The notes beneath the pieces were generated by a model that was not told where the DNA came from, searched no databases, and worked only from the letters and a program-made list of their open reading frames with translations. A stretch of DNA of 64,000 nt from Fluviirhizobium alvei (lineage in GTDB: Bacteria; Pseudomonadota; Alphaproteobacteria; Rhizobiales; Rhizobiaceae), in the NCBI RefSeq assembly GCF_030551875.1, contig NZ_JAUOZU010000009.1, positions 1 to 64,000 on the forward strand, written 5' to 3'. Made by a program: the position numbers and the translations under genes. Below are positions 9,129-31,847 of this stretch, piece by piece. How positions within the stretch are numbered: the first letter of the stretch is position 1; the number at the start of each line of letters is the position of its first letter.

Positions 9129-9908
9129 ATGGCAAACTCGCTCAATCAACTCGCTGCCGGCCTGCTGACGGGCTCGGTCAAGGTCGTCGATCTCACTGCG
9201 CCGCTCGGCCCTGAGACGCCGGTTCTTTATCTGCCGCCACAGTTCGGCAAGAATACGCCGAACGTCAAGGTCCATACCATTTCCGCCTATGACCAGGACG
9301 GTCCGTTCTGGGCCTGGAACTGGCTTGAGCTCGGCGAACATACCGGTACCCATTTCGATGCGCCCTGTCACTGGATCACCGGCAAGGACAATCCGCAGAA
9401 CACGACCGACACCATTCCGCCGCAGAATTTCGTCGCGCCCGTCAATGTCATCGACCGGTCGAAAGAGGCTGCAGCCGATCCGGACTATCTCCTGACTGTC
9501 GACAGCATCAAGGAGTGGGAAGCCGAGAACGGCGAGATCGAGGCCGGCACCTGGGTTCTCATGCGCACCGACTGGTACAAGCGCAACGGCTCCACCGAGA
9601 CCTTCCTTAATGCCGATGAGAATGGCCCCCATTCGCCGGGTCCGACGGCAGAAGCGATCGAATATCTTCTGTCGAAGGGCATCATCGGCTGGGGCCAGGA
9701 GACGATCGGAACCGATGCCGGTTCCGCTGGCGGCATGAACCCGCCGTTCCCTGCGCACAATCTCATGCACAAGGCCAACAAATACGGCCTCGCCAGCCTG
9801 TCGAATCTCGACCAGCTGCCTGCCAAGGGTGCAATCCTCATTGCCGCGCCGCTGAAGCTGGTCAAGGGCACCGGTTCGCCGGTGCGTGCCCTGGCGCTGA
9901 TCGCCTGA
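9129..9908 (+). CDS. Isatin hydrolase-like metal-dependent hydrolase (cyclase family)
   Basis: The 259-residue protein carries the metal motif HTGTHFDAPCHW, with His71, His75, Asp77 and His81. This is the hallmark of the cyclase family (PF04199) that includes Mn-dependent isatin hydrolase and arylformamidase. From memory, long stretches such as GPFWAWNWLELGEH, LNADENGPHSPGPT and PAKGAILIAAPLKL closely match characterised isatin hydrolase of Labrenzia. This favours isatin to isatinate over N-formylkynurenine hydrolysis. The start follows AAGGGGAACGCC. It lies between two CrtI-like flavoprotein genes and two MarR genes. Cytoplasmic; no signal peptide is seen. Confidence 0.82.
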   Translation: MANSLNQLAAGLLTGSVKVVDLTAPLGPETPVLYLPPQFGKNTPNVKVHTISAYDQDGPFWAWNWLELGEHTGTHFDAPCHWITGKDNPQNTTDTIPPQNFVAPVNVIDRSKEAAADPDYLLTVDSIKEWEAENGEIEAGTWVLMRTDWYKRNGSTETFLNADENGPHSPGPTAEAIEYLLSKGIIGWGQETIGTDAGSAGGMNPPFPAHNLMHKANKYGLASLSNLDQLPAKGAILIAAPLKLVKGTGSPVRALALIA

Positions 9909-9917
9909 TTGCAGCAA

Positions 9918-9942
9918 AGGCGGCGGACAAGGTTCGCCGCCT
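9918..9942 (+). terminator. Hairpin after the isatin hydrolase-like gene
   Basis: An 8-bp GC-rich stem (AGGCGGCG / CGCCGCCT) with a 9-base loop lies ten bases past the stop. It is followed by CTTGCCTG rather than a T run, so it is more likely a weak terminator or mRNA 3' stabiliser. The next gene is on the same strand. Confidence 0.45.
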
Positions 9943-10025
9943 CTTGCCTGCAGGCTCTTTCTTTCTCACCATGGAAGCTGCCGGGAGCGCCATGCGTTCG
10001 CTGGCTTTACGTCTGGAGGCGACCC

Positions 10026-11615
10026 ATGAGCGTTCCCGATTACATCGTCGTTGGTTCCGGCATCAATGCGCTGGTGGCCGCTGCCATGCTCGGCAAGAAG
10101 GGCAAGAAGGTTCTGATGCTGGAGCGTAACGCCCAGCTCGGAGGCTGCTTGCGCACGGAAGAAGCGACCGTCCCCGGCTTCGTCCATGACGTGATGGCAA
10201 CGACCATGGTGCTCTTCATGACATCGCCGGCCTTTGCTGCGCTAGGCAAGGATCTGGAAGCGCGAGGCCTCGAATTCTGCCATTCGGCTCTGCCCACGGG
10301 GGTTCTGCGTCCGGACGGAACGCATGCCATCCTCAGCATGAAGCGCGAAGACAACATTGCCCGCTTCGACGCTCTCGCGAGCGGCGATGGCCAGGCGTTC
10401 GATCGCGAGATGAACCGTTTCGGCGGCAATGCCGGCTTCGTTTTCGGGCTCCTGGGTGGCAATCTCTGGTCGATGGCAACCGCAAAACTGGTAGCGAAGG
10501 AAGCCTGGAAACGCGGCCTCAAGGGCTTGGCCGCCTTCTTTGGCGAAGCCTTGGCTCCCGCGCGCGGCTATCTCGAAACCACCTACCGCTCCGAAGAAAT
10601 GAGGGCGCTCTGGGCGCCTTGGGCTCTGCATTGCGGGCTCGGTCCGGAGAGCAGCTATTCGGCCGAGATGACCAAGGTGATCGGCTTTGCGATCGAACTT
10701 GCGGGCTGCCCGATCGTGAAGGGCGGTGCTGCCAATCTCGTCAAGGCATTCGAGCGCCTGATCCGCGACCAGGGCGGGGAAATCCTGACCGGCGCCGATG
10801 TCGACCAGGTGACGGTTGGGGCAGGCGGACGCGCTTCCGGCGTCGTTCTCGCCGATGGCCGCAAGTTCACCAGCAAATCGGGCGTCATCGCCTCCATGAC
10901 CCCGGACCAGATCTATACCCGTCTTTTGAAATCGGCGCCAACGCCGCTTCCGGAAAGTGTTTCGGATGGTTTAAAAACCTACCGATACGGCAAGGGCAAC
11001 ATGCAGATCCATTACGCCCTGAAAGAAGCGCCGCGCTGGAAGGCAGGCGAAGAACTCGGCAAGGTCGCCCTCCTGCATCTGACGCCGGGGCTGGATGGCG
11101 TATCGAAATCGTCCAACGAGGCGGAGCGCGGCATGCTTCCCGCCGAGCCGACGGTTTGCGTTGGACAGCCGACTTCGTTTGATCCGAGCCGGGCGCCGGA
11201 AGGGCAATCCATCCTCTGGCTTCAGTTGCCAGACACGCCGCGCTTCATCAAGGGCGATGCAGCCGGCGAACTGGATTGCCCGACCGATGGTCGCTGGACC
11301 GAGGCTCTGCGCGAATCCTTTGCCGATCGCGTCGAAAACATGCTGCGCCACCATATAGAGAATTTCGACGAAGCGGTGATTGCCCGCCGCGTCTATTCGC
11401 CCGCCGATCTCGAAACCATGAACATGAATCTGGTCGGCGGCGACCCCTACGGTGGATTCTGCGGGCTGGACCAGTTTTTCCTCTGGCGTCCGTTCAAGAG
11501 ACCGAATAACCACATGACGCATGTGCCGGGGCTCTATCATATCGGAGCGTCCACCCATCCGGGGCCCGGCCTTGGCGGAGGATCTGGCTTCTTGCTGGCA
11601 TCCTCATTGAAGTAA
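10026..11615 (+). CDS. CrtI/phytoene desaturase-like FAD-dependent oxidoreductase 2
   Basis: The 529-residue protein starts MSVPDYIVVGSGINALVAAAML, with GGAGGCGACCC upstream; the longer open frame to 9909 has no such site. It has the N-terminal FAD motif VVGSGINALVAA, then MLERNAQLGGCLRTEE. The C-terminal flavin-contact region is GLYHIGASTHPGPGLGGGSGF. It has the same length and architecture as the gene at 7274-8845, so the two are diverged paralogues or two halves of a heteromer. It is separated from the downstream MarR gene by 16 bases, implying co-transcription. The substrate is not known; oxidation of a dioxindole-like compound to isatin would fit the neighbourhood. Confidence 0.75.
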   Translation: MSVPDYIVVGSGINALVAAAMLGKKGKKVLMLERNAQLGGCLRTEEATVPGFVHDVMATTMVLFMTSPAFAALGKDLEARGLEFCHSALPTGVLRPDGTHAILSMKREDNIARFDALASGDGQAFDREMNRFGGNAGFVFGLLGGNLWSMATAKLVAKEAWKRGLKGLAAFFGEALAPARGYLETTYRSEEMRALWAPWALHCGLGPESSYSAEMTKVIGFAIELAGCPIVKGGAANLVKAFERLIRDQGGEILTGADVDQVTVGAGGRASGVVLADGRKFTSKSGVIASMTPDQIYTRLLKSAPTPLPESVSDGLKTYRYGKGNMQIHYALKEAPRWKAGEELGKVALLHLTPGLDGVSKSSNEAERGMLPAEPTVCVGQPTSFDPSRAPEGQSILWLQLPDTPRFIKGDAAGELDCPTDGRWTEALRESFADRVENMLRHHIENFDEAVIARRVYSPADLETMNMNLVGGDPYGGFCGLDQFFLWRPFKRPNNHMTHVPGLYHIGASTHPGPGLGGGSGFLLASSLK

Positions 11616-11631: not shown

Positions 11632-12138
11632 ATGGAGAACGGTTTTTCCGGCGAGGTTCTCGGGCCGCCCGGCTCCGAGGACGGTCGCATGCCGAGCCTC
11701 GGCGAAATGGGGCTCAACCACTTTGCGCCCTACATCATGAACCGGATCATGGCGCGCTGGAACGCCAACCTGGCCGATGAATTGCGCGCGCGCGACATCA
11801 CGACGGCCAAGATGCGGGCGCTTGCCGTCCTTTCGGTCTCGACATCGCTGACGATCAATGAACTCTCTGTCTTCGGCGTGACGGAACAGTCGACCATGAG
11901 CCGCACGGTGGATTCTCTCGAAGAGCAGGGGCTGATCAGCCGTACGCCGCGTGCTGACGATCTGCGTGTGCGCGATGTTTCCATCACCGAGGAAGGCCGT
12001 AACGTCTTCAACGAAATCTGGCCGCTGATGTATGATGGTTTGCGCCAGATGTTTCGCGACATCGATGACGACGAATATCGTGCCTTTCTCACCACTTTGC
12101 ACAAGATCCTGCGCAACGTCCGCAAGAACGAGATCTGA
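11632..12138 (+). CDS. MarR-family transcriptional regulator
   Basis: The 168-residue protein has a MarR winged helix at residues about 55-130. The recognition helix lies in VTEQSTMSRTVDSLEEQGLI and the wing is RTPRADDLRVRDVSITEEG. It follows the CrtI-like gene by 16 bases and is convergent with iorB. It is a second candidate ligand-responsive repressor for the isatin-related genes, whose promoters share palindromes. Confidence 0.87.
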   Translation: MENGFSGEVLGPPGSEDGRMPSLGEMGLNHFAPYIMNRIMARWNANLADELRARDITTAKMRALAVLSVSTSLTINELSVFGVTEQSTMSRTVDSLEEQGLISRTPRADDLRVRDVSITEEGRNVFNEIWPLMYDGLRQMFRDIDDDEYRAFLTTLHKILRNVRKNEI

Positions 12139-12210: not shown

Positions 12211-13761
12211 TCAGAGCGTCGCCACCGTTTTCAGTGCACCATCGAGCGCCGTGCCGTTTTCATCGAGCAGAGCTGCCTGCCGCAACCGGCGCATCCAAGC
12301 GGCGCCATCCTCGCGGTCAGCGAGTTTCGGCAAGGCCGACATCACGCGATCGAACTTGGAGAGGCCGCGCGAATGGGTATCCGAATAGCCCTTCACGAGC
12401 CGGCGGTTACCGAGAATCTCGACAGCCAGATCATAGTTTTTCGGCAGCAACCGCAGCGCTTCGCCAACCCACGCCTGGCGATGTTCGGTCTCGATGGCAT
12501 GGCGCAGGCTGCCGCGTCGGAACCGGCGCAGCGCCGAGACGAAATAGAGCCCGGTGAACCAGAACAGCGTACCGGTCTTGACGCGACGACCCTTGTCGAT
12601 CCGGCGATTGAGCCAGTTGAACAGTCCGGGCCTGTTCTCGATCCAGCGTCCGAGCGCTTTGGGCAGCGTGCCGCAAACTTCTTCCATCCGCGGATGCATA
12701 TATTCGGTGGTGTAGAGAAGCTGGTCGGCCTTGACGCCGACTTCCTTCTTCACGCGGTCGAAGCGCGTGGCTCGTGTCTTCAAATCGGCGACCCGGATGA
12801 CGTCGTCATAGGCCATGGCGATCGCCACATATTTGGCAGCCTGTGCAGTAAAGGCAAAATCCTTGGCTTCGCCGCCATTGGTCCTGTCGGCACTGTAAAG
12901 CCGGGCGACCTCATCGAGATATTCATTGGCATAGGCCGGATCCTGGAAATCGGTCAACTTCTTAACGCCGGCATAGAGCATGGCATGGATGGTTGCCGGA
13001 AACTCGTTGCGGATGCGGGCAAGCAGCTTGTCGAGGGCCGGATGACCCGCCTTGGCCGGTAGTGGTGCGAATGTCTTGCCCGGCTCGGCCGAGAGCTTGT
13101 CGTTACCGCCCTTGAGCACGCGCTCATAGGCGGCATTGAAGGCGCGCAGACTGGCTTCCACACCCTTGCCGCCTTTGCGCACGGTGGCTTCGAAAGCCTC
13201 CTTCGTGAAGGGCAGGGCGCCTGAGGCGCAAAGGGCGCCGAACATCGAGGCCGAAATCACGCTGCCATTTTTCACCGCCAGCGTATCCATGTCGAAAGCG
13301 ATCGTCTTTTTCGCGGCAAAATCGGTGGCATCGACAACCACAGTCGGGTTGCCGGTGCCATCACCCGGCTTCTCCTTTTCGCCCACCGCATAGGAACGGT
13401 GCGTAGACGCGATCAGCATCGTTTTTTCAGGGGTGACGAGGCCGCGCAGCACCGAGCGTCCGGCTTCCATCAGCTCGGCGGCGAGCACGACATCGACATC
13501 GCCTGGTGTCGGCATCAGCGCTAGCACCGGTTCCACACCCTCGCGGGCTTTCAGAAGTTCGAGATAATAGATGGTGGCGCCGGTTCTCTGGGCGACACCG
13601 GGAACCGAGGTGGTCTGCGCCACCCAGCCTTCACCTTCGGCGAGATCGACGATCCAGTCAGCGAGGACGCCGCCGCCCTGTCCACCCATGGCGAGAATGG
13701 CAAGCGCCAGCGGCTTGTCCTGAGACAGCATGGCAGACGTGTTTTCGACATGTACGTTCAT
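12211..13761 (-). CDS. iorB: Indolepyruvate:ferredoxin oxidoreductase-type beta subunit (extended form)
   Basis: The 516-residue product begins with the gamma-type domain of the 2-oxoacid:ferredoxin oxidoreductases (ILAMGGQGGGVLADWIV, residues about 22-38; PFOR gamma family). It carries a long C-terminal extension (from about residue 220) found in the large proteobacterial form of this subunit. It lies 12 bases downstream of the alpha subunit gene, so the two form one transcript and one complex. The enzyme class converts aryl 2-oxoacids to aryl(acetyl)-CoA plus CO2 with ferredoxin reduction. Given the neighbouring isatin hydrolase-like gene, isatinate (2-aminophenylglyoxylate) is an alternative substrate to indolepyruvate. 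That is inference. Confidence 0.85.
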   Translation of the reverse strand: MNVHVENTSAMLSQDKPLALAILAMGGQGGGVLADWIVDLAEGEGWVAQTTSVPGVAQRTGATIYYLELLKAREGVEPVLALMPTPGDVDVVLAAELMEAGRSVLRGLVTPEKTMLIASTHRSYAVGEKEKPGDGTGNPTVVVDATDFAAKKTIAFDMDTLAVKNGSVISASMFGALCASGALPFTKEAFEATVRKGGKGVEASLRAFNAAYERVLKGGNDKLSAEPGKTFAPLPAKAGHPALDKLLARIRNEFPATIHAMLYAGVKKLTDFQDPAYANEYLDEVARLYSADRTNGGEAKDFAFTAQAAKYVAIAMAYDDVIRVADLKTRATRFDRVKKEVGVKADQLLYTTEYMHPRMEEVCGTLPKALGRWIENRPGLFNWLNRRIDKGRRVKTGTLFWFTGLYFVSALRRFRRGSLRHAIETEHRQAWVGEALRLLPKNYDLAVEILGNRRLVKGYSDTHSRGLSKFDRVMSALPKLADREDGAAWMRRLRQAALLDENGTALDGALKTVATL

Positions 13762-13773: not shown

Positions 13774-15927
13774 TCAATCTGCAAATACGATGCGGCCGGC
13801 GTCGCGGCGCTTCTGTAGCCAGCCGATGACGGCTGCGCGGATACGGTGGGCAAACCGGTCCCAACCGGTCGGATTGTGGATGACGTCGGCGCGATAGAAG
13901 GAAGGACAGAGGACGGCTGCCTCCGAGACCTCGCCGCAATTGCCGCAACCGACGCAGGAATTGTCGATCGCCGCGACCGGATCGTCCTTGAGCGGGTCGT
14001 CCGTATGCTTGACCGACAGCGACGGGCAGCCGGACAAACGGATACAGGCGTGATCGCCCGTGCAGACATCCTCGTCGACGCCGAACCGTTCCTTGACCAT
14101 GCGCTTACCGTCCTTGACGGCTTTCGCAAATTGCGGCTTCACGCGGCGCTGCTTGTTCAGCATGCATTCCGAGGAGGCGACGATGATCTTCGGTCCCGGT
14201 TCCTTTGTCGTCAGCGCTTCCTTCAGCGTGTCGCGCATCTTGGCCACATCATAGGTGCGGTCGATCTGGCGCACCCAGGTCGCTCCGATACCCTTGACCG
14301 CATTGACGATGGAATTGTTGGTCTTGCGTCGCGGATTGAGCGCTCGCGAGGACATGATGTCCTGACCGCCCGTTGCCGCTGAGTAGTAATTATCGACGAC
14401 AAGAATGACACCGTCCTGCTTGTTGAAGACGGCATTGCCGACCGAGGTTGCCAGGCCATTGTGCCAGAAGCCGCCATCACCCATGACGGAAATCGAACGC
14501 TTGCCGGCTTCGACATTGAAAGCGGATGCGGAGGCCGGCCCGAGCCCGTAACCCATCGTCGTGCCGCCGATATTGAAGGGCGGCAGGATGGAGAAGAGAT
14601 GGCAGCCGATATCGGCCGAGACGTGATGTTCTCCCAGTTCCTTTTCGACAAGCTTCATGGCGGCGAAGATCGGGCGTTCCGGGCAACCGGTGCAGAAGCC
14701 GGCCGGCCGCGGCGGTACGACCTCGGCAAGGGCCTTGACCTTCGGATCCGAAAGCACCGGCTCGGGATTGGGAACCGGCGGTCGATTGCCAAGAAGGGCA
14801 GGGGCATGGGTTTCGATGAAGGTGCCGAAACCCTTGATGAGAACCGGCGTCGTATATTCACCGCCGAGCGGCAGCACGTCCTTGCCGGAGATCTTTGTCG
14901 CGATATCGCGGCGACGGAAAAGCGCATGCAGCGTGTGCTCGATATATTCGGGAGCGCCTTCCTCGACCATGAGGATTGCCTTCTTGCCCTCGGCAAAGGC
15001 GATCAGCTCCTCATCCACCATCGGATAGGAGACGTTCATGACATAGAGCGGAACCCGGCAGTTGCCATAGACATCGGCCAGCCCGAGATGCTGGAGCGCC
15101 CGCATGGCACCATTATAGACGCCACCCTGAAGCACGATGCCGATTTCGCCCTCGTCGGGACCGAAGAACTCGTTAAGCCGGTTTTCGCGAACGAAGTTGA
15201 CAGCGGCCGGCCAGCGCTTTTCGAGCTTTTCCTTCTCGTGCACGAAAGAGGCCGGCGGCAGCACGATGCGATTGACGTCACGGCGCGGATTTTCGAGCGC
15301 TTCCTTGAGCGTATATTCGGGACGCTTGTTGTCCTTGGCGACAAAATGGCCGTGGACATGGCAGGACCGGATGCCGACCTGCAGCATGACCGGCGTGTTC
15401 GAGGCTTCGGAAAGCTCGAAGCCCTTTTCGACAGCCTCGACGATCGACGGCAGGTTCGGCCGCGGCGTCATCAGCCACATCTGCGATTTCATCGCAAAGG
15501 CGTGGCTGCGTTCCTGCATGATCGAGGAACCTTCGCCAAAATCCTCGCCGATGATGATGAGAGCGCCGCCTGTCACCCCGCCTGAGGAAAGATTGGAAAG
15601 CGCATCGGAAGCAACGTTGGTTCCTGCCGTCGATTTCCAGGTGACCGCACCGCGCACGGGATACATGACGGAGGCCGACAGCATGGCTGCCGCTGCGGCC
15701 TCGGAGGCGGACGTCTCGAAATGGATGCCGAGTTCTTCCATGACATCCTTGGCATCAGCCAGAACGTCCATCAGGTGCGAGATCGGTGAACCCTGATAGC
15801 CGCCGACATAGGACACGCCCGATTGCAGCAGCGCTTTCGTAATGGCGAGAATGCCCTCGCCACGGAAGATGTCGCCATCCTTGAGTTTCAGATCCTCAAC
15901 TTCACGTGCGAATGATCGCTCTGCCAT
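13774..15927 (-). CDS. iorA: Indolepyruvate:ferredoxin oxidoreductase-type alpha subunit (TPP, Fe-S)
   Basis: The product is about 717 residues starting MAERSF, preceded by GGGGAACGTC; an upstream ATG at 15939 has no good ribosome site. The N-terminal part (YVGGYQGSPISHLMD) is the pyrimidine-binding domain of 2-oxoacid oxidoreductases. TPP is bound by GDGGFWHNGL...VVDNYYSAATGGQ. PAGFCTGCPERP is conserved in the family. The C-terminus has an unusual cysteine set, CX5CX5CP then CX2CX2CX9CP, seven cysteines for Fe-S clusters. It would catalyse CoA-dependent oxidative decarboxylation of an aryl 2-oxoacid in the cytoplasm. A perfect palindrome lies 28 bases upstream of the start. Confidence 0.87.
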   Translation of the reverse strand: MAERSFAREVEDLKLKDGDIFRGEGILAITKALLQSGVSYVGGYQGSPISHLMDVLADAKDVMEELGIHFETSASEAAAAAMLSASVMYPVRGAVTWKSTAGTNVASDALSNLSSGGVTGGALIIIGEDFGEGSSIMQERSHAFAMKSQMWLMTPRPNLPSIVEAVEKGFELSEASNTPVMLQVGIRSCHVHGHFVAKDNKRPEYTLKEALENPRRDVNRIVLPPASFVHEKEKLEKRWPAAVNFVRENRLNEFFGPDEGEIGIVLQGGVYNGAMRALQHLGLADVYGNCRVPLYVMNVSYPMVDEELIAFAEGKKAILMVEEGAPEYIEHTLHALFRRRDIATKISGKDVLPLGGEYTTPVLIKGFGTFIETHAPALLGNRPPVPNPEPVLSDPKVKALAEVVPPRPAGFCTGCPERPIFAAMKLVEKELGEHHVSADIGCHLFSILPPFNIGGTTMGYGLGPASASAFNVEAGKRSISVMGDGGFWHNGLATSVGNAVFNKQDGVILVVDNYYSAATGGQDIMSSRALNPRRKTNNSIVNAVKGIGATWVRQIDRTYDVAKMRDTLKEALTTKEPGPKIIVASSECMLNKQRRVKPQFAKAVKDGKRMVKERFGVDEDVCTGDHACIRLSGCPSLSVKHTDDPLKDDPVAAIDNSCVGCGNCGEVSEAAVLCPSFYRADVIHNPTGWDRFAHRIRAAVIGWLQKRRDAGRIVFAD

Positions 15928-15954
15928 GACGTTCCCCATCTTGTTGGCAATTTG

Positions 15955-16182: not shown

Positions 16183-17718
16183 ATGACTGACATTACGCGT
16201 CGTGGCGTACTGGGGCTGGGTGCAGCAACGGTGCTGACAAGCATTCTTGCAGGCCGTCTGCCCGTGCAGGCCGCCGAAACCGATACGCTGACCATTGCCT
16301 TCAATGCCAATCTGCCGTCTTTCGACGGCACGGTTGGTCTTTCGGGCGTCAATCCCGCCATCCAGGCGATCTATCGCTCGATCTACGATCAGTATATCGG
16401 CCAGAAGCCGGATCTCGCCTTCGAGCCTGGCCTCCTGACGGCCTGGGGCTGGAACGACGACAAGACGCAGGTATGGATGGATGTGCGCGAAGGCGTAAAG
16501 TGGCACGACGGGTCCGATTTCACCCCGGAAGATGTCGTCTGGTCGCTGACGCGCGCCGCCAAGCCTGAAACCGGTAACCCGGTCGCCAGCGTCTGGGCCG
16601 GCATCGGCAACTATAAGGTTGAAGGATCGCGGATCACCGCCGATGTGCTGGCATTCGATCCGACCATCTTCAAATGGATGGCGTTCCTCACCGGCTACGT
16701 TCTGCCCAAGGCCTATTATGAAAAGGTTGGCGCTGAAGGGTTCGAAAAGAAGCCGATCGGCACGGGCCCCTACATGTTCGACGCTTACGAGGGCAATTCC
16801 TTCCTGCGCCTCAAGGCCAACCCGAACTATTGGGGCGGCAAGCCGGCGTTTGAGACCGTGATCTTCAAGTTCGTGACCGATGCGACGAGCCGCGTCGCCG
16901 AAATCGAATCCGGTTCGTCCGACGTGACCCTCGAAATTCCCTTCGAGGAATTCGACCGCCTGAAGGAGATGGAAGGCCTGGCCGGCGTCTCGTCCCCGAT
17001 CTCCGATATCGGCATGATCTTCATCACCAATGTCGAGCCGATGCTGGACAAGAATGTGCGTCTGGCCGCCCACCATGCCATCGACAAGGCCGGTATCGTC
17101 AAGAAGCTCCTGCGCGGCTATGGCGTGCCGATCGATACGCTCGAAGCACCGGAATATGCGGCTTTCGATCCGTCCATCAAGGTCGAGTACAATCCCGACA
17201 AGGCTGTCGAACTGCTCGCAGCCTCGGGCTTCTCGAAGGAAAATCCGGTCAAGTTCAAGATCCAGACCACCCGCGGCCTCAAGCCGAAGGACTATGAGAT
17301 GATCCAGGCGATCGTCGGCATGTGGCGTAAGGTCGGCATCGAGGCGGAAATCGAAGTCTACGAAATCGCCAAGCATTTCGAACTGCGTGCCGGCCACAAA
17401 CTTGCGCCGGCTGCCTTCTACAACTGGGGCAATGCGATCGGCGATCCGACCACTTCGACAGGCTTTGCGATGTTCTCGAAGTCGCCGCATTCCGGCTGGA
17501 AAACGGACGATGTCGATGCCCTCATCGGCCCGCTCTGGGGCGAAAAGGATGAAGAAAAGCGCATCGCCGGCTGGAAGGCTGTCGATAAATACATCGCCGA
17601 GCAGGGCTACGTGATCCCGCTCCTGCAGTATGTGCAGCCGATCGTCTTCAAGTCTTCGCTGAAGGTAACGCCGAACGTTTCGAGCGCGCTCCAGCCGACT
17701 CTCGTCTCCAAGGCCTGA
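16183..17718 (+). CDS. Tat-exported ABC transporter solute-binding protein (SBP_bac_5 family)
   Basis: The 511-residue protein has a twin-arginine signal (TRRGVLGLG, residues 4-12, then a hydrophobic stretch and a likely cut after PVQA, about residue 29). The body has hallmarks of peptide/nickel-type binding proteins: AIYRSIYDQYI, VWSLTRAA, GTGPYMF and the C-terminal IPLLQYVQPIVF. It precedes an Opp-type permease/ATPase set and would deliver the ligand in the periplasm. Family members bind peptides, opines, nickel or plant-derived compounds, so the ligand is uncertain. The position suggests an indolic compound or conjugate. The ribosome site is AAGGAG. Confidence 0.87.
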   Translation: MTDITRRGVLGLGAATVLTSILAGRLPVQAAETDTLTIAFNANLPSFDGTVGLSGVNPAIQAIYRSIYDQYIGQKPDLAFEPGLLTAWGWNDDKTQVWMDVREGVKWHDGSDFTPEDVVWSLTRAAKPETGNPVASVWAGIGNYKVEGSRITADVLAFDPTIFKWMAFLTGYVLPKAYYEKVGAEGFEKKPIGTGPYMFDAYEGNSFLRLKANPNYWGGKPAFETVIFKFVTDATSRVAEIESGSSDVTLEIPFEEFDRLKEMEGLAGVSSPISDIGMIFITNVEPMLDKNVRLAAHHAIDKAGIVKKLLRGYGVPIDTLEAPEYAAFDPSIKVEYNPDKAVELLAASGFSKENPVKFKIQTTRGLKPKDYEMIQAIVGMWRKVGIEAEIEVYEIAKHFELRAGHKLAPAAFYNWGNAIGDPTTSTGFAMFSKSPHSGWKTDDVDALIGPLWGEKDEEKRIAGWKAVDKYIAEQGYVIPLLQYVQPIVFKSSLKVTPNVSSALQPTLVSKA

Positions 17719-21633: not shown

Positions 21634-21647
21634 TCAGGAGCATGACC

Positions 21648-24544: not shown

Positions 24545-25330
24545 ATGAATGGATTGAACGGTAAAACTGCGATCATTTCCGGCGGCGCGACGCTGATCGG
24601 GCAGGGCGTCGCCGAGGTGCTCAAAGGCTACGGCGTCACCGTCGTCATTGCCGATATCAACAAGGAAGCCGGTGAAAAGGCGGCTGCCAATGTTGGCGGC
24701 AACACGCATTTCATCGCCACCGATATCACGAACGACGATGAAATAGCTGCACTCGTCGCCAGGACCGTCGAGAAGACCGGCCGTCTCGATTTTCTCGTCA
24801 ACGTCGCCTGCACCTATCTCGACAATGGAGCCGAAACGACCCGTGGTGACTGGCTGAAGGCGCTCGATGTCAACATCGTCGGCTCTGTCATGCTGATGCA
24901 GGCAGCGCGCAAGCATCTGGCCGCCAACAAGGGTGCGATCGTCAATTTCGGTTCGATCTCGGCACGTGTCGCGCAGACCGGTCGCTGGGTCTATCCGGTC
25001 TCCAAGGCCGCGATCCTGCAGTTGACCCGCAACCAGGCGATGGATCTGGCCCCCGATGGCATCCGCGTCAACGCAGTGTCGCCGGGCTGGACCTGGTCCA
25101 ACATCATGCAGGAACTGACGCATGACACGCGTGCCAAGGCAGACGCCGTCGCCAAGGATTTCCATCTGCTCGGCCGCACCGGCAGCCCGAGCGAAGTGGG
25201 CGAGGCCATCGCCTTCCTTCTTTCTGACAATGCGAGCTTCATCACCGGCACGGATATCCGCGTCGATGGCGGTTACACGGCCATGGGTCCGGAAACCAAC
25301 GTTCCGGCTATCCCGCGCCTGATGGACTGA
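24545..25330 (+). CDS. Short-chain dehydrogenase/reductase (SDR)
   Basis: The 261-residue protein has a variant nucleotide-binding motif (SGGATLIGQG, residues about 13-22) in place of TGxxxGIG. It has NVACTYLDN instead of the usual NNAG. The catalytic elements are a Ser in NFGSISA and YPVSK. It ends with GTDIRVDGGYTA. It lies between the flavin reductase and the SMO-type monooxygenase with short gaps (38 and 39 bases). In the Acinetobacter indole operon iif an SDR oxidises the dihydrodiol formed by the monooxygenase. A similar role is inferred here. The ribosome site is AAGGGGAAG. Confidence 0.85.
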   Translation: MNGLNGKTAIISGGATLIGQGVAEVLKGYGVTVVIADINKEAGEKAAANVGGNTHFIATDITNDDEIAALVARTVEKTGRLDFLVNVACTYLDNGAETTRGDWLKALDVNIVGSVMLMQAARKHLAANKGAIVNFGSISARVAQTGRWVYPVSKAAILQLTRNQAMDLAPDGIRVNAVSPGWTWSNIMQELTHDTRAKADAVAKDFHLLGRTGSPSEVGEAIAFLLSDNASFITGTDIRVDGGYTAMGPETNVPAIPRLMD

Positions 25331-25369
25331 CACTGAAAACTTCAAGAAACTCAAACAAAGGGGAATGAC

Positions 25370-26608
25370 ATGACGAATTCGAGACATTTCACCATCGTCG
25401 GCGGCGGCCAGTCCGGCCTTCAACTCGGCATCGGCCTGCTCAAGGCGGGACATGCCGTTCGCATCGTGCAGAACCGCACCGGCGAAGAAATCGAGAAAGG
25501 CAAGGTTCTGTCGAGCCAGTGCATGTTCGATGTGGCGCTGCAGAACGAGCGCGATCTCGGCATCAATTTCTGGGAAGCTGCTTGCCCGACCGTCGATTCG
25601 ATCAATTTCACCGTGCCTCATCCCGAAGTCGCCGGTGCCAAGGCCATTGATTGGAACGGCAAGCTCGACAAGCCCGCCCAGAGCCTTGACCAGCGTGTGA
25701 AAATTCCGCGCTGGATGCAGGAATTTGCCCGTCTCGGTGGCGAAATGGTCATCCACGATGCCGGCATTGCGGATCTCGAAACCTATGCCAAGCAGAGCGA
25801 TCTGGTGATCGTCGCAGCCGGCAAGGGCGATATCGCCAAGATGTTCGAGCGCGATGCCAGCCGTTCGCCGTTCGACAAGCCGCAGCGCGCTCTGGCTCTG
25901 ACCTATGTGAAGGGCATGAAGAAGCGCTCCGACCATTCGGCCGTCAACTTCAACCTCATCCCGACGGTCGGCGAATATTTCACCTTCCCGGCCTACACGA
26001 CCACGGGTGCCTGCGACATCATGGTGTTCGAAGGCATCCCGGGTGGCCCGATGGATTGCTGGAAGGATGTGAAGACACCGGAGGAACATCTGGCCAAGTC
26101 CAAATGGATCCTCGAAACCTTCACCCCCTGGGAAGCCGAACGTTGCACCGATATCGAGCTGACCGACGATAACGGCATCCTGGCCGGCGCTTTCGCCCCG
26201 ACCATTCGCAAGCCGGTGGGCCGTCTTCCGTCCGGTGCGATCGTGCTGGGCATGGCCGATGCCGTCTGCCTCAACGATCCGATCACCGGTCAGGGCTCGA
26301 ACAACGCCTCCAAGGCGGCAAAATGCTACATGGATGCCATTCTGGCACATGGCGACAAGGCATTCGATGAGGCCTTCATGGTCGATACGTTCGAAGCCTA
26401 CTGGTCATACGCCCAGTTCGTCGTCGGCTGGACCAATGCGCTTCTGATGCCGCCGCCGCCGCATGTGCTGAATATCATGGGCTCTGCCCAGGCCTATCCG
26501 GAACTGGCCAAGCGCATTGCCAACGGCTTCAACGATCCGCGGGATTTCTTCCCCTGGTTCGCCGTACCGGAAGAGGCGGATGCCTATCTTACGCGCCTTG
26601 CTGCGTAA
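25370..26608 (+). CDS. Styrene/indole monooxygenase-type FAD oxygenase (StyA/IifC-like)
   Basis: The 412-residue flavoprotein begins with FTIVGGGQSGLQLGIGL (residues 8-24) and shows the styrene-monooxygenase family pattern: VLSSQCMFDVALQNERDLGINFWE, then GRLPSGAIVLGMADAVCLNDPITGQGSNNA, the second FAD-binding region. Members epoxidise styrene or oxidise indole at C2-C3, using free reduced FAD from a separate reductase. The upstream flavin reductase and SDR reproduce the gene set of known indole oxidation operons. Indole or an indole derivative is therefore the likely substrate. The exact substrate is unproven. Confidence 0.85.
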   Translation: MTNSRHFTIVGGGQSGLQLGIGLLKAGHAVRIVQNRTGEEIEKGKVLSSQCMFDVALQNERDLGINFWEAACPTVDSINFTVPHPEVAGAKAIDWNGKLDKPAQSLDQRVKIPRWMQEFARLGGEMVIHDAGIADLETYAKQSDLVIVAAGKGDIAKMFERDASRSPFDKPQRALALTYVKGMKKRSDHSAVNFNLIPTVGEYFTFPAYTTTGACDIMVFEGIPGGPMDCWKDVKTPEEHLAKSKWILETFTPWEAERCTDIELTDDNGILAGAFAPTIRKPVGRLPSGAIVLGMADAVCLNDPITGQGSNNASKAAKCYMDAILAHGDKAFDEAFMVDTFEAYWSYAQFVVGWTNALLMPPPPHVLNIMGSAQAYPELAKRIANGFNDPRDFFPWFAVPEEADAYLTRLAA

Positions 26609-26934: not shown

Positions 26935-27492
26935 CTATTTCGGCAGGCGTCTGTGCGTTGCCGCCGTCCTTGCCACCTGTTCGTAGATGCCCGTCATCAG
27001 GTCGAGCGTTTCGGTGGCCTGTTCCAGCCGGTGCGCAAGGTTGGGGACCGACTGTACGGCCTTGACCAGCAACGAGGCGCGGATATCGGCGTAACGGTCG
27101 GTCACGTCGCGGCCGGCCTGGGTAACGGTGTAAGTCACGCCCGAACGCCCGCTGCCGGTCCGCTCGACAAGGCCCGCACCGATAAGCTTGCGCAAACTGT
27201 ATTGCATGTTGGGAATGTCCTCGCGGTTGGAAAGCCGCGCAATATCCTTCAGCGTCTTCGGCCGGTCGTTCATGCGGATGATGTGCAGCATGGCATTTTC
27301 CGGACCGCTGGCCGTCAGGTCGATCACGGTGGCCAGACATTCCGCCTGCCAGCGTCCGAAGGCTTCGAAGGCGCGCATCAGGGCATATTCCAGTTCGGCG
27401 ACATCCATTTCCGCCGTGGTGCGTGCCAGATGCCAGTGGCGATCGAGACCCTCCTCGCCGTCTCTGCCGTTGTCTTGGCTCTTGTCCTGCAT
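26935..27492 (-). CDS. MarR-like winged-helix transcriptional regulator
   Basis: The product is about 185 residues starting MQDKSQD, with GGGAG seven bases before. The longer frame to 27618 would run through the promoter of the divergent gene. The winged helix is in RPKTLKDIARLSNREDIPNMQYSLRKLIGAGLVERTGSGRSGVTYTVTQAG, spread over residues about 75-130, preceded by a helical dimerisation region. It lies divergent to the luciferase-like monooxygenase gene, so control of that promoter is likely. Confidence 0.8.
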   Translation of the reverse strand: MQDKSQDNGRDGEEGLDRHWHLARTTAEMDVAELEYALMRAFEAFGRWQAECLATVIDLTASGPENAMLHIIRMNDRPKTLKDIARLSNREDIPNMQYSLRKLIGAGLVERTGSGRSGVTYTVTQAGRDVTDRYADIRASLLVKAVQSVPNLAHRLEQATETLDLMTGIYEQVARTAATHRRLPK

Positions 27493-27597
27493 CTGATACT
27501 CCCGTCCCGATTCGAGGGGCATGCTCACTGTCGTCGGCACCTGCTTAGAACCATCCCCTGCTGCAGTCAAAAAAAGGGCCGCACCGGAAAATGTCCA

Positions 27598-27625
27598 TTG
27601 ACAAACTTTATGTTTCAAATAAAAT
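27598..27625 (+). promoter_or_regulatory. Promoter of the luciferase-like monooxygenase gene with overlapping repeat
   Basis: A -35 TTGACA (27598-27603) and -10 TAAAAT (27620-27625) are separated by 16 bases. An inverted repeat, TTTAT-N7-ATAAA (27607-27623), lies between and over them, a good position for a repressor. Confidence 0.6.
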
Positions 27626-27663
27626 TTCTATCGTAAATTCTAACAAATATTTGGGGAACTACC

Positions 27664-28782
27664 ATGACAGAGAACTCGATGTTCGCTGAAGGACAATTCG
27701 TGCTCGGAACCTTCGCCTCCAACTGCTCAGGCGGCATGTCCGTGACGAAAGTGCCGGAGCGCTGGGTCAATTCCTGGGACAACAATCTGAAACTTGGCAG
27801 GCTGCTCGATGATGCCGGGATCGACTTCATGCTGCCGATCGCCCGCTGGATCGGTTATGGCGGCGAAACCAACTTTCATGGCGGCGTGCTGGAAACCATG
27901 ACCTGGGCCGCCGGCCTGCTCGCAAGCACCAAGAATATCAATGTGTTCGCGACCATCCACACGGCCGCGAACCATCCCGCCGTGGTGGCAAAGCAGATCG
28001 CGACGATCGACCAGATCAGCCATGGCCGCATCGGTCTCAACATCGTCGCCGGCTGGAACCAGCCCGAATATGAGGCGCTTGGTCTGTCGCTGCCAGCCGG
28101 CCATGAGGACCGTTATGGCTATGCGCAGGAATGGTTCGATGTCATCAAGGCATTGTGGAGCAAGACTGAGGCCTTCGATTGGGATGGCGCCCATTTCAAG
28201 CTCAAGAATATTCTCGGCGACCCGCGACCCTCGCGCAAGATTCCGATCCTCAATGCCGCCGGTTCGGGTGAGGGCAGGGCTTTTGCCGTGCGTAACGCCG
28301 ATTTCCTCTTCACGCCGGCTATCGATCTATCACGCTCCGGCGAAGAGATCGCTGCCCTCAAGCAGCAGGCTGCCGATGTCGGTCGCAAGGTCGGCGTTCT
28401 GACCTTCAGCCATGTCGTCTGCCGTCCGACCGAGAAGGAAGCGAAGGACTATCTGCAGCATTTCGGCCAGGACAATGCCGATTGGGACGCCGTCGACAAT
28501 CTGGTGCGCCTGCAGTTCGCCCATGCCCATTCCTTCCCGCATGATCTTCTGGCGCTGATCCGCGATCGTATGGCAGCCGGCCATGGCGGCTTTCCGCTCG
28601 TCGGCACCCCGGAACAGGTGGCGGAAGGGCTGATTGCGCTTCACAAGGCGGGCTTCAACGGAACGACATTGTCCTTCGTGGATTATGCCGAGGAGTTCCC
28701 CTACTTCCGCGACAATGTGCTGCCGATCCTGGAAGCCGCCGGTATCCGCCGTTCGGTGACGCTGGAAGCAGCGGCAGCCTGA
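27664..28782 (+). CDS. LLM-class (luciferase-like) FMN-dependent monooxygenase
   Basis: The 372-residue protein is a bacterial-luciferase-like TIM barrel. It contains GGVLETMTWAAGLLASTKNINVFATIH, NHPAVVAKQIATIDQISHGRIGLNIVAGWNQPEYEALGL and RPSRKIPILNAAGSGEGRAFA, spread over residues about 75-215. This matches the RutA / alkanesulfonate monooxygenase subgroup. These enzymes use FMNH2 from a separate reductase to insert oxygen, often opening a ring or cleaving C-N or C-S bonds. The next gene encodes such a reductase. It lies between the indole-type monooxygenase operon and the 2-aminobenzoyl-CoA operon, so a role on a nitrogen heterocycle such as an oxidised indole is an attractive guess. The substrate is unknown. 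The ribosome site is TTGGGGAAC. Confidence 0.87.
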   Translation: MTENSMFAEGQFVLGTFASNCSGGMSVTKVPERWVNSWDNNLKLGRLLDDAGIDFMLPIARWIGYGGETNFHGGVLETMTWAAGLLASTKNINVFATIHTAANHPAVVAKQIATIDQISHGRIGLNIVAGWNQPEYEALGLSLPAGHEDRYGYAQEWFDVIKALWSKTEAFDWDGAHFKLKNILGDPRPSRKIPILNAAGSGEGRAFAVRNADFLFTPAIDLSRSGEEIAALKQQAADVGRKVGVLTFSHVVCRPTEKEAKDYLQHFGQDNADWDAVDNLVRLQFAHAHSFPHDLLALIRDRMAAGHGGFPLVGTPEQVAEGLIALHKAGFNGTTLSFVDYAEEFPYFRDNVLPILEAAGIRRSVTLEAAAA

Positions 28783-28895
28783 TCGGTCTGCATCGGGGTG
28801 GCGTGATCGCCGCCCCATTTCTCTTTCAAAACCGGAAATCTGGACGTCGGGTTGAAGCCCGCGACGGTTTCCTGCATCCATACAGCGAGGCAAAC

Positions 28896-29417
28896 ATGCA
28901 GTTCGATCAGGATGTTAATGCACTTCCAGACCTCTACAAGCGCGCCATGCGCAGCTTCGCAGGCAATGTCAGCGTCATCACGGTCGGCCGCGGCGAAGAC
29001 CGGTCCGGTCTGGTTGCCACATCCACCGTGTCCCTCTCCGTCGACCCCGCCATGATGCTTGTTTGCGTCAACCGGGGTGCGTCTTCCTGGCCGCTTTTCG
29101 AGCGCTATCGCCATTTCGGCGTCAACTCGCTGACGCCTGACCAGCAGGCGATTGCCGAGCGCTTTTCGGGTCGCGGCGGCGTGAAAGGGCAGGATCGTTA
29201 TGCACTCGGCCGCTGGACCACGGCGGTCACCGGTGCGCCGCTTCTCGAGGATGCCGCCGTCTCCATCGATTGCTCGATCGAGGACATGATCGAGCGCGAA
29301 ACCCACTCGATCCTGATCGGCCGCGTCCGGGCTGTCGAGATCGGGGATCCCTCTGCGGCCCTCGTTTATTGGCAGGGTTCCTATCGGCCCCTTCTAGCCG
29401 AAAGCTTGTCTGTCTGA
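28896..29417 (+). CDS. Flavin reductase, likely partner of the LLM monooxygenase
   Basis: The 173-residue protein starts MQFDQDVNALPDLYK. It shows the flavin reductase pattern YKRAMRSFAGNVSVITVGRGE and GLVATSTVSLSVDPAMMLVCVNRGAS, with NSLTPDQQAIAERFSGRGG later. It follows the luciferase-like gene by 113 bases on the same strand. Supply of FMNH2 to that enzyme is the obvious role. An open frame from 28803 is longer but has no ribosome site. Confidence 0.85.
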   Translation: MQFDQDVNALPDLYKRAMRSFAGNVSVITVGRGEDRSGLVATSTVSLSVDPAMMLVCVNRGASSWPLFERYRHFGVNSLTPDQQAIAERFSGRGGVKGQDRYALGRWTTAVTGAPLLEDAAVSIDCSIEDMIERETHSILIGRVRAVEIGDPSAALVYWQGSYRPLLAESLSV

Positions 29418-29465
29418 TCGGCCTGACAAGGGCATTTTTCATTGTCTCGGGGTGCCACTTTTTGC

Positions 29466-29504
29466 TTGACGCTTAAAACATCTCGAGATATTTTAATCTT
29501 AAAA
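29466..29504 (+). promoter_or_regulatory. Promoter and operator of the 2-aminobenzoyl-CoA operon
   Basis: A -35 TTGACG (29466-29471) and a -10 TATTTT (29489-29494) are spaced 17 bases apart. A 24-base palindrome with a single mismatched pair covers 29473-29496, centred on ATCTCGAGAT and ending in TTAAAA and TTTTAA. It fills the spacer and the -10. Its right arm also forms a second repeat, TTTTAA-TC-TTAAAA (29491-29504), like the one at 16114. The arrangement strongly suggests repression by a dimeric regulator. Confidence 0.7.
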
Positions 29505-29531
29505 TAAATTCAGGCATGAAGGGAACGACAC

Positions 29532-31847
29532 ATGCGCATCGTTTGTATCGGCGGGGGTCCGGCAGGTCTCTATTTCGGATTGCTGATGAAGAAACTTCAT
29601 CCCGAGCATGACGTTACGGTGGTGGAGCGCAACAAGCCTTACGATACGTTCGGCTGGGGCGTCGTCTTCTCGGATGCCACCATGCAGTCGATGCGGGCCT
29701 GGGATCCGGAAAGTGCAGCCGAGATCGAAGATGCATTCAACCATTGGGATGATATCGAGCTTCTCTTCAAGGGCACGCGCCAGCGCACGACCGGCCACGG
29801 TTTCGTTGGCATCGGTCGCAAGAAGCTTCTCAACATCCTGCAGGCACGCTGCGAAGCGCTCGGCGTCGAACTGGCCTTCGAAACCGAAGTCGACAGTGAT
29901 CTCGACTTCCCGGATGCCGATCTGGTCATCGCTTCGGACGGGTTGAATTCCAGGATCCGCAACAAATATGCCGACGTGTTCCAGCCGGATCTCCTGGTTC
30001 GCCCGAACCGCTATATCTGGCTCGGCACCAACAAGCTTTATGATGCCTTCACCTTCGATTTCCGCAAGACGGATCACGGCTGGTTCCAGGCGCATATCTA
30101 CAAGTTCGACGACCAGACTTCGACCTTCATCGTGGAAACCACCGAGGAGGCCTATCAGGCCCACAAGCTCGGTGAAATGTCACAGGATCAGTCGATCGCC
30201 TTCTGCGAGAACCTCTTCGCGGAAACTTTGGAAGGCGCTTCGCTGATGACCAATGCGCGCCATCTGCGCGGATCGGCCTGGCTGAACTTCAATCGCCTGA
30301 TTTGCGGAAAGTGGAGCCATTTCAACGGCAATTCGCATGTCGTGCTTATGGGCGATGCGGCCCATACCGCTCATTTCGCCATTGGCTCCGGCACCAAGCT
30401 CGCCATCGATGATGCGATCGAGCTTGCCAACCAGTTCAATATTGCCGGCCACGGCAAGGAGACGATTCCGGCGGTTCTCGAAACCTACGAGGAAATCCGT
30501 CGCGTCGATGTCGCCCGCATCCAGAACGCGGCACGCAATGCCATGGAATGGTTCGAAGTTGTCGGCCAGCGTTATGCCGATACGCTGGAGCCGGAACAGT
30601 TCATGTATTCCATGCTCACCCGTTCCCAGCGCATCAGCCACGAAAATCTGCGTCTGCGCGACAAGACCTGGCTCGAAGGTTACGAGCGTTGGTTCGCGGC
30701 CAAGCAGGGTCTCAATGTCCAGGAAGGCGAACGCTGCCTGCCGCCGATGTTCACGCCCTACAAGGTGCGCAACGTTACCCTCGCCAATCGTATCGTCGTC
30801 TCGCCGATGGCAATGTACTCGGCCAAGGATGGTCTGATCGATGATTTCCACATGGTCCATCTCGGTAGCCGCGCCATGGGTGGTGCCGGTCTCGTCTTTG
30901 CCGAAATGACCTGCGTCTCGCCGGATGCGCGCATCACGCCGGGCTGCCTTGGCCTGTGGAACGACGAGCAGATGGAGGGCTGGAAGCGGCTTGTCGCCTT
31001 CGTCCATGCCAACACCAATGCCAAGGTTGCCGTGCAGCTCGGCCATGCCGGTCGCAAGGGTGCGACGAAACTGGCCTGGGAAGGCATCGACCAGCCTCTG
31101 GAAACCGGCGGTTGGCCGCTGATCTCGGCCTCGGCTCTGCCCTATCTCAAGCATAGCCAGGTTCCGAAGGCGATGGATCGCGCCGATATGGATCGTGTAA
31201 AGGCCGATTTTGTCGCCGCGACGAAGCGGGCCGCCGAGGCCGGTATCGACTGGCTCGAATTCCATGCCGCTCACGGCTATCTGTTGTCGAGCTTCCTGTC
31301 GCCGCTCACCAACCGGCGCGAAGATGAATATGGCGGCAGCCACGAGAACCGGGCGCGCTATCCGCTCGAAGTTTTCCGTGCCGTGCGCGATGCCTGGCCG
31401 GCCGACAAGCCGATTTCGGTTCGTCTATCCTGCCATGACTGGTTCGAAGGTGGCAACACGCCGGATGATGCGGCGATTTTCGCGGCCATGTTCAAGGACG
31501 CCGGCGCCGATCTCATCGACTGCTCGTCGGGTCAGGTCTGGAAGGAGGAACAGCCTGTCTATGGCCGCCTGTTCCAGACGCCGTTCTCCGACAAGATCCG
31601 CAACGAGATCCATGTGCCGACCATTGCCGTCGGTGCAATTTCGGAAGCCGACCATGCCAATTCCGTCATCGCAGCCGGCCGTGCCGATCTCTGCGCTGTG
31701 GCCCGCCCGCATCTGGCCGATCCGGCCTGGGCGCTGCATGAAGCAGCCAAGATCGGTCTGAAATCGGTGCCCTGGCCGAAGCAATATATGTCGGGCAAGT
31801 ATCAGTACGAATCCAACCTTGCCCGCGCGGCAGTCGCTGCCAAGTGA
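29532..31847 (+). CDS. 2-Aminobenzoyl-CoA monooxygenase/reductase-type bifunctional flavoprotein (also annotated salicylyl-CoA 5-hydroxylase)
   Basis: The 771-residue protein joins two flavoenzymes. Residues about 1-390 are a class A FAD hydroxylase: IGGGPAGLYFGLLMKK at 5-20, then GDAAHTAHFAIGSGTKLAIDDA. Residues about 400-765 are an Old Yellow Enzyme-type barrel: FTPYKVRNVTLANRIVVSPM, GHAGRKG, EFHAAHGYLLSSFLSP and REDEYGGS. This architecture is that of the Azoarcus enzyme that hydroxylates 2-aminobenzoyl-CoA and then reduces the ring, yielding a non-aromatic oxocyclohexene-carbonyl-CoA. Homologues with the same fusion are annotated salicylyl-CoA 5-hydroxylase. It leads an operon with thioesterase, RidA and SDR genes. 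The isatin-related neighbours favour the 2-aminobenzoyl-CoA assignment. Confidence 0.88.
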   Translation: MRIVCIGGGPAGLYFGLLMKKLHPEHDVTVVERNKPYDTFGWGVVFSDATMQSMRAWDPESAAEIEDAFNHWDDIELLFKGTRQRTTGHGFVGIGRKKLLNILQARCEALGVELAFETEVDSDLDFPDADLVIASDGLNSRIRNKYADVFQPDLLVRPNRYIWLGTNKLYDAFTFDFRKTDHGWFQAHIYKFDDQTSTFIVETTEEAYQAHKLGEMSQDQSIAFCENLFAETLEGASLMTNARHLRGSAWLNFNRLICGKWSHFNGNSHVVLMGDAAHTAHFAIGSGTKLAIDDAIELANQFNIAGHGKETIPAVLETYEEIRRVDVARIQNAARNAMEWFEVVGQRYADTLEPEQFMYSMLTRSQRISHENLRLRDKTWLEGYERWFAAKQGLNVQEGERCLPPMFTPYKVRNVTLANRIVVSPMAMYSAKDGLIDDFHMVHLGSRAMGGAGLVFAEMTCVSPDARITPGCLGLWNDEQMEGWKRLVAFVHANTNAKVAVQLGHAGRKGATKLAWEGIDQPLETGGWPLISASALPYLKHSQVPKAMDRADMDRVKADFVAATKRAAEAGIDWLEFHAAHGYLLSSFLSPLTNRREDEYGGSHENRARYPLEVFRAVRDAWPADKPISVRLSCHDWFEGGNTPDDAAIFAAMFKDAGADLIDCSSGQVWKEEQPVYGRLFQTPFSDKIRNEIHVPTIAVGAISEADHANSVIAAGRADLCAVARPHLADPAWALHEAAKIGLKSVPWPKQYMSGKYQYESNLARAAVAAK

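Follow-up and report, generated by a model that had tools for sequence, protein, structure and literature searches.

Comparative genomics of an IorAB-type oxidoreductase in Fluviirhizobium alvei points to a probable direct route from isatinate to 2-aminobenzoyl-CoA

Introduction

What becomes of isatinate once isatin has been hydrolysed? In the relevant passages of the papers on indole and auxin degradation considered here, the step after isatinate is given no enzyme, and the marker genes iadA and iadB are given no reaction. The question is raised by a 64-kilobase (kb) stretch of contig NZ_JAUOZU010000009.1 of Fluviirhizobium alvei (hereafter, the window), which carries genes for an isatin hydrolase, for a 2-oxoacid oxidoreductase of the IorAB type and for a fusion protein of the 2-aminobenzoyl-coenzyme A (CoA) monooxygenase/reductase type. 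We propose that the cluster containing these genes degrades indole via isatin, with IorAB turning isatinate and CoA into 2-aminobenzoyl-CoA and CO2, and we consider this reading likely. Related compounds besides indole are probably degraded as well. The identities of the genes and their co-inheritance across genomes are established in the sections below.

The host genome comprises 5.2 Mb in 46 contigs (completeness 99.75%). Open reading frames (ORFs) were annotated up to ~51 kb of the window, and the catabolic cluster spans ~7.3–35.6 kb, with a glycerol operon next to it. The original prediction, made from this DNA alone, had placed an isatin hydrolase, IorAB and the fusion in one region, and all three were confirmed there as real genes. 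An indole monooxygenase set (23994–26608) that it had not mentioned sits between isatin hydrolase/IorAB and the fusion. The grouping exceeds chance, since these genes are found together in other genera as well. The genes on which the argument turns are as follows.

9129–9908 (+): isatin hydrolase, 259 amino acids; PF04199, 417 bits to 4j0n, motif HTGTHFD
12211–13761 (−): IorB-type subunit (POR + DUF6537), 516 amino acids; NF006179 720 bits and Pfam matches
13774–15939 (−): IorA-type thiamine diphosphate (ThDP)/Fe-S subunit, 721 amino acids; TIGR03336 268 bits, motifs and co-occurrence
29532–31847 (+): 2-aminobenzoyl-CoA monooxygenase/reductase-type fusion, 771 amino acids; NF006101 1365 bits, Pfam FAD_binding_3 and Oxidored_FMN

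Identity of isatin hydrolase, IorAB and the fusion

The isatin hydrolase ORF matches PF04199 with 134 bits, and the metal motif HxGTHxD that had been claimed for it is present at residues 71–77. On sequence comparison its identity may be regarded as secure, since its best relatives of solved structure are themselves isatin hydrolases (4j0n/4m8d with 417 bits; 5nna, 5nnb and 5nmp with 304–313 bits); the next solved match is another cyclase-family protein at 102 bits. Two CrtI-like flavin adenine dinucleotide (FAD) oxidoreductases (7274–8845 and 9909–11615) accompany isatin hydrolase in other genera too.

Enzymes of the 2-oxoacid:ferredoxin oxidoreductase family carry out oxidative, CoA-acylating decarboxylation, which is the change that separates isatinate from 2-aminobenzoyl-CoA. 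The IorB match to NF006179 lies well over the cut-off of 348 bits and the subunit carries the POR gamma-type domain PF01558 (55 bits), while the IorA match to the TIGR03336 equivalog stays under the cut-off of 651 bits. IorA has a ThDP motif, GDG-x27-N, at residues 487–517 and Fe-S-type patterns with ten conserved cysteines (CxxC at 416 plus C446, C-x5-C-x5-CP at 626, and CxxCxxC-x9-CP at 662), and both motif and cysteines are kept across 18 aligned IorA sequences. Together the two subunits represent the long two-gene type. The closest IorA proteins in the collection of named genomes are those of Rhizobium sp. C4 and C1 (96 and 95% identity), and that of Variovorax (loci L078–L080) is 66% identical. 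Searches of solved structures with IorA (phmmer and profile) and with IorB (phmmer) returned no match. An AlphaFold model of IorA is poor (mean pLDDT 58, 18 sequences) and carries no weight here; its fold search returned general ThDP enzymes with TM ~0.2.

The fusion clears the NF006101 cut-off of 1078 bits, the model being named for salicylyl-CoA 5-hydroxylase, and unites an FAD monooxygenase (PF01494) with a reductase of the old yellow enzyme type (PF00724) in one protein. From its context and from the literature on this pair of domains, 2-aminobenzoyl-CoA is its presumed substrate.

Co-inheritance across genomes

The co-inheritance of these genes was followed in a family sample of 199 genomes, each searched for the fusion, IorA, isatin hydrolase and the ligase discussed below, and in a phylum sample of 398 genomes. 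Isatin hydrolase was counted at an identity of at least 50% in the family and at least 51% in the phylum, and phylum IorA at an identity of at least 61%; weak isatin-hydrolase matches (35–44% identity), the best available in 13 further family genomes and in 6 phylum genomes, were excluded. Presence/absence lists were compiled by hand from the search rows before counting. The IorA of one family genome (G066) is in two pieces and was counted as IorA, the genome being left out of the 65 distances given below, and in three phylum genomes (G512, G217 and G418) the IorA match is likewise in two pieces.

In the family, IorA is present in 66 of the 199 genomes and in 43 of the 109 genera, and isatin hydrolase is present in 61 genomes, all of which have IorA (Fisher 8e-46). 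The distance between the two genes in 65 genomes is below 10 kb in 49 and below 25 kb in 5 more, with both on the same contig in a further 2; in the other 9, isatin hydrolase is either not on the same contig or absent. The fusion was found in every one of the 66 IorA genomes (60 over the NF006101 cut-off, 6 below it) versus 50 of the 133 others. These 116 fusion genomes include 106 with a match over the cut-off and 10 with a match only below it (818–1054 bits), among which the match in G089 is cut by a contig end.

A similar pattern is seen in the phylum, where IorA and isatin hydrolase each occur in 25 of 398 genomes and both in 23 (Fisher 7e-33). All 24 tested IorA genomes have the fusion (21 over the cut-off, 3 below), versus 6 of 50 negatives, a non-random set chosen by handle number and from listed rows. 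The three-gene co-occurrence that the original prediction had suggested looking for is thus present in the family (61/61 and 66/66) and in the phylum. Isatin hydrolase is absent from the four phylum genomes that hold only an IorA paralogue (51–56% identity), and neither isatin hydrolase nor the fusion occurs in any of the seven fetched paralogue loci (50–57% identity); the link is therefore specific to the IorA clade of the window.

The ligase complements IorAB

The original prediction had also noted that the region lacks an AMP-forming (adenosine monophosphate) aryl-CoA ligase, and this is borne out: the window contains no PF00501 (AMP-binding) match, and tblastn of ligases from related loci against it gave nothing at 1e-5. 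The nearest PF00501 match starts 747 bases past the right end of the window and is of the fatty-acid/methylthiopropionyl type.

Regions around the fusion were fetched for 80 of the 119 listed matches of at least 818 bits outside the window, a few of them shortened by contig ends. In fusion clade II (50–70% identity to the fusion of the window) an AMP-forming ligase lies 3.2–4.1 kb from the fusion in 34/34 fetched loci. This ligase belongs to the benzoate-CoA ligase family, with 369–371 bits that fall just short of the cut-off of 375, and kynureninase is also present in 11 of the 34 loci. In clade I, the type found in the window, the ligase is present in 5 of 39 fetched loci.

At the genome level, ligase searches used a query from a fusion locus in place of the genome's own ligases, and presence was set at an identity of at least 53%. 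A first pass scored seven candidates per genome, and for the 13 ligase-less genomes the search was repeated with every candidate scored, which gave nothing at 1e-60 in G000 and G155 and nothing above 36% identity in the other 11. Of the 116 fusion genomes 103 have the ligase, and the 83 other family genomes all lack it. Both ligase and IorA occur in 54 of the fusion genomes, the ligase only in 49, IorA only in 12 and neither in 1, where 5.6 would be expected by chance (Fisher 0.0065). The assembly of that sole genome (G196) is split into ~250 contigs, with 362 bases between a contig end and the start of the fusion match. IorAB and the ligase are therefore complementary at the genome level, and 12 family genomes, that of the window included, have IorA, isatin hydrolase and the fusion without the ligase.

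Kynureninase, searched in all 116 fusion genomes, is present in 89 of 103 with the ligase versus 2 of 13 without it, and is absent from 11 of the 12 ligase-less IorA genomes. We read this pattern as two feeds into the fusion: a kynurenine route yielding free anthranilate, which needs the ligase, presumed to act on anthranilate, and an isatin route yielding isatinate, which needs IorAB. A position of IorAB downstream of the fusion was rejected, as 49 genomes carry fusion and ligase without IorA, so that IorAB is not required after 2-aminobenzoyl-CoA and would lie upstream. It is placed between isatinate and the thioester because its partners are isatin hydrolase on the upstream side and the fusion on the downstream side, because it is absent from those 49 genomes, and because of the chemistry of its family.

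Individual loci show these arrangements at close range. The cyclase, MarR, IorA and IorB genes are adjacent in Sulfitobacter indolifex, and in G565 IorA, IorB, isatin hydrolase and the fusion lie within 8 kb, with no ligase at 1e-60. G418 has two copies of the fusion, one less than 4 kb from IorA and the other less than 4 kb from the ligase. On an Azospirillum plasmid IorAB, Rieske genes and the fusion form one gene run, the sole ligase being of the IadF type (identity 62% with the Variovorax ligase and 26% with the LIG type).

Comparative genomics thus strongly supports the proposed step from isatinate to 2-aminobenzoyl-CoA by IorAB. The conversion put forward in the original prediction gains support from the co-occurrence of the three genes and from the dispensability of the ligase in 12 genomes; that free anthranilate is bypassed, as was also suggested, is what we infer.

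Published observations on IorAB and IadAB

In the relevant passages of PMC3788728, iorA and iorB are up 30.7- and 7.6-fold with indole-3-acetic acid (IAA) in Bradyrhizobium japonicum, and this enzyme is also said to feature prominently when Azospirillum brasilense responds to IAA. Such induction fits a substrate that comes after IAA, and not indolepyruvate. It bears directly on the annotated function, in which IorAB would oxidise indolepyruvate to indoleacetyl-CoA in tryptophan or auxin breakdown. The family name, the NF006179 and TIGR03336 matches and the degradation of IAA by iad loci all agree with that function, but IAA, the inducer, comes after indolepyruvate, IorAB is partnered with isatin hydrolase in loci of the indole type as well as the IAA type, and the TIGR03336 score is under the equivalog cut-off. 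We regard the annotated function as improbable.

Several published details bear on the proposed action of IorAB on isatinate. As described in the relevant passages of PMC9613470, the iad locus breaks down IAA to anthranilic acid, with isatin and isatinic acid as intermediates, and the IorA/IorB homologues of these loci, iadA/iadB, are exclusive markers of iad-like operons. In a Variovorax deletion mutant, a compound of formula C8H7NO3 builds up strongly only in iadC-K2 strains; the authors ruled out N-formylanthranilate, and isatinate, which has this formula, is unnamed in that passage (PMC12633357). The deletion (genes 77–53) takes out iadA, gene 72 (PMC9613470), and, judging by gene order, would remove iadB as well; neither name occurs in the main text of PMC12633357, a 2025 preprint. 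This build-up in strains lacking iadA is in keeping with the proposed step. Isatinate is proposed as a substrate of IorAB or IadAB by none of these authors in the relevant passages, and the literature that was covered, with few subscription papers, yielded no description of isatinate oxidation to 2-aminobenzoyl-CoA or of IadAB function. The 'iorAB' of PMC6365646 is a name for another enzyme.

Exceptions and the place of anthranilate

A number of observations weigh against the proposed step. The ligase is present somewhere in 54 of the 66 IorA genomes, and in 7 of the 19 loci with isatin hydrolase and the fusion near IorA. The Alloyangia locus also carries it (72% identity), and in loci of the Rhizobium tropici group (L007, L009–L011, L014–L016) a gene of the benzoate-CoA-ligase family stands alongside IorAB, isatin hydrolase and the fusion, divergent from the fusion in each of the five loci, out of seven, whose gene order was inspected. 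G155, one of the 12 ligase-less IorA genomes, has kynureninase. In G517 (L225 8957–14600) ligase, MarR, isatin hydrolase and fusion genes are adjacent without IorAB, possibly a third layout. IorA occurs without isatin hydrolase in 5 of 66 family and 2 of 25 phylum genomes, G430 carries isatin hydrolase but lacks both IorA and the fusion, and neither partner was found within up to 10 kb on each side in 27 of 80 IorA loci. The fusion is present in two of the four phylum genomes whose sole IorA is a paralogue. The Fisher values treat genomes as independent and ignore shared ancestry, and so overstate the association, for which a better case is made by its spread across genera and classes. Lastly, a Variovorax iadC-K2 strain forms anthranilate without iadA, according to the relevant passage of PMC12633357, and there anthranilate formation thus does not require IorAB. 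These exceptions are real, and they are compatible with a mixed situation where anthranilate can also form from isatinate by loss of CO2.

The same observations bear on an alternative in which free anthranilate forms from isatinate, either spontaneously or with the help of an unknown enzyme, and is then converted to the thioester by a ligase or CoA transferase that escaped recognition, IorAB using another 2-oxoacid. The Variovorax anthranilate and the ligase found in place of IorAB in G517 would be explained in this way, and the genome of the window does hold several AMP ligases under every curated cut-off (e.g. L083, L087, L092, L094) and two weak PF00501 matches (L096, L097) outside the annotated set. 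Yet the AMP ligases of this genome belong to acetate, propionate, acetoacetate, fatty-acid or unassigned types, and the best of them shares 32% identity with the LIG type, the ligase searched here, and 36% with the other group of ligases, that of clade III loci; kynureninase is missing along with the ligase in 11 of 12 cases, and a compound of the formula of isatinate accumulates when iadA is absent. We consider this alternative unlikely.

Anthranilate might also arise behind IorAB. In Ruegeria pomeroyi and Shinella (L248, L249) the gene right after IorB encodes a thioesterase, which could set anthranilate free from the thioester, and several loci have YbgC-like genes close to IorB. It is conceivable that in some hosts IorAB makes 2-aminobenzoyl-CoA and the adjoining thioesterase frees anthranilate as the true intermediate or excreted product, and B. 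japonicum and Variovorax do yield anthranilate in the published passages. The window and all 66 family IorA genomes hold, however, the fusion expected to consume the thioester, and this variant seems very unlikely to us.

Proposed pathway

In the route that we favour, a flavin-dependent oxygenase, a flavin reductase and a dehydrogenase (23994–26608) would convert indole to 3-hydroxyindolin-2-one, which one CrtI-like flavoprotein may oxidise to isatin; the two flavoproteins next to isatin hydrolase are good candidates for this role. Isatin hydrolase would open the ring to give isatinate, an aryl 2-oxoacid, and IorAB would decarboxylate isatinate oxidatively onto CoA, yielding 2-aminobenzoyl-CoA, CO2 and reduced ferredoxin or a similar acceptor. 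Activation would then use neither ATP nor an aryl-CoA ligase. The fusion is predicted to hydroxylate and reduce the ring of 2-aminobenzoyl-CoA, and a short-chain dehydrogenase/reductase (SDR), a Rid-family protein and other enzymes would complete the breakdown. We infer the substrate, product and electron acceptor of IorAB, as well as the enzyme that forms isatin. The chemistry is of a known kind; the substrate and the place in the pathway would be new.

With somewhat less assurance, we favour extending this assignment to the widespread iad auxin loci, such that IorAB and IadAB would both be isatinate:acceptor oxidoreductases (CoA-acylating) and isatin-type breakdown of indole and auxin would lead directly to 2-aminobenzoyl-CoA. 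Anthranilate would then be largely a by-product or a thioesterase product, and the family ligase would serve mainly the kynurenine branch. If this is true, isatin-type indole and auxin breakdown gains reduced ferredoxin and saves ATP, and a two-gene answer closes the gap after isatinate and changes the accepted end product. It would also provide a marker for auxin- and indole-degrading bacteria, and a reaction for a gene pair of plant-hormone degraders.

Organization of the cluster

The remaining features are listed here in map order.

7274–8845 (−): CrtI-like FAD oxidoreductase 1; TIGR02734 145 bits, under cut-off; recurs beside isatin hydrolase
9909–11615 (+): CrtI-like FAD oxidoreductase 2; present in 21/80 IorA loci
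11632–12138 (+): MarR-type regulator; recurs adjoining IorAB
16183–21633 (+): dipeptide-type ABC (ATP-binding cassette) transporter (binding protein, two permeases, two ATPases); recurs beside IorA
21459–22202 (+): glyoxalase/VOC protein; profile matches
22850–23839 (−): AndR-like AraC-family regulator; NF041686 150 bits, under the cut-off of 350; Pfam AraC domains
23994–24506 (+): flavin reductase (IifD-like position); PF01613 137 bits
24545–25330 (+): short-chain dehydrogenase (IifB-like position); NF006121 394 bits
25370–26608 (+): indole/styrene-monooxygenase-type oxygenase (IifC-like); 639 bits to 7z4x
26935–27618 (−): winged-helix (MarR-like) regulator; PF13463 49 bits; no NCBIfam match at 1e-30
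27664–28782 (+): LLM-class flavin mononucleotide (FMN) monooxygenase; TIGR04021 183 bits, under cut-off
28803–29417 (+): RutF-like flavin reductase; TIGR03615 122 bits, under cut-off
31819–33939 (+): SDR, YbgC-type thioesterase, Rid-family protein and cupin (PF07883); order identical in Alloyangia; probably downstream steps
33939–35573 (+): fumarylacetoacetate-hydrolase-type enzyme and SDR; profile matches

The IifC-like oxygenase scores 639 bits to the solved chain 7z4x, which we take to be an indole monooxygenase, versus 130 bits to the styrene monooxygenase 3ihm. For the cofactor-free oxygenase IifA, no candidate was seen among the annotated ORFs of the cluster, as judged without an IifA query sequence; a plus-strand ORF at 26953–27636 was dropped, being antisense to the winged-helix gene. 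The LLM-class monooxygenase and the RutF-like flavin reductase (27664–29417) form a two-component oxygenase, and among 80 fusion loci 4 carry the LLM gene (L155, L157, L159, L162). A transposase of the IS481/IS3 type lies at 1202–2182, close to the left edge of the window.

Comparison with known systems

The reaction proposed for IorAB is like that of phenylglyoxylate:acceptor oxidoreductase from Azoarcus, which converts an aryl 2-oxoacid and CoA to an aroyl-CoA and CO2. That enzyme has five subunits, whereas in the window only two subunit genes stand between a MarR gene and a transporter. With archaeal IorAB the window pair has in common the ThDP and Fe-S motifs and the two-gene layout, but its alpha subunit scores below the equivalog cut-off and its beta subunit is longer, with DUF6537.

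IadA and IadB of the iad auxin locus belong to the same protein families as IorA and IorB of the window. In the Variovorax locus L078, IorA and IorB are followed by Rieske, AMP-ligase, thiolase and isatin-hydrolase genes; in the window the Rieske genes IadCDE are replaced by indole-type oxygenase genes, and when the Rieske ORF, AMP ligase and thiolase of Variovorax were searched against the window by tblastn, no match reached 1e-5. The iif/ind indole cluster, as presented in the relevant parts of PMC6221969 and PMC12538310, shares the oxygenase, flavin reductase and SDR with the window, in which isatin hydrolase and IorAB are present instead and no IifA candidate was seen among the annotated ORFs of the cluster. 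The downstream enzyme type is that of the anthranilate-CoA ligase plus monooxygenase/reductase system of Arthrobacter Rue61a, where, in the relevant passages of PMC3534580, genes with an assayed ligase role adjoin the same kind of fusion. In Arthrobacter the fusion is fed by an ATP-dependent ligase (PMC3534580), unlike the feed by IorAB that is proposed for the window.

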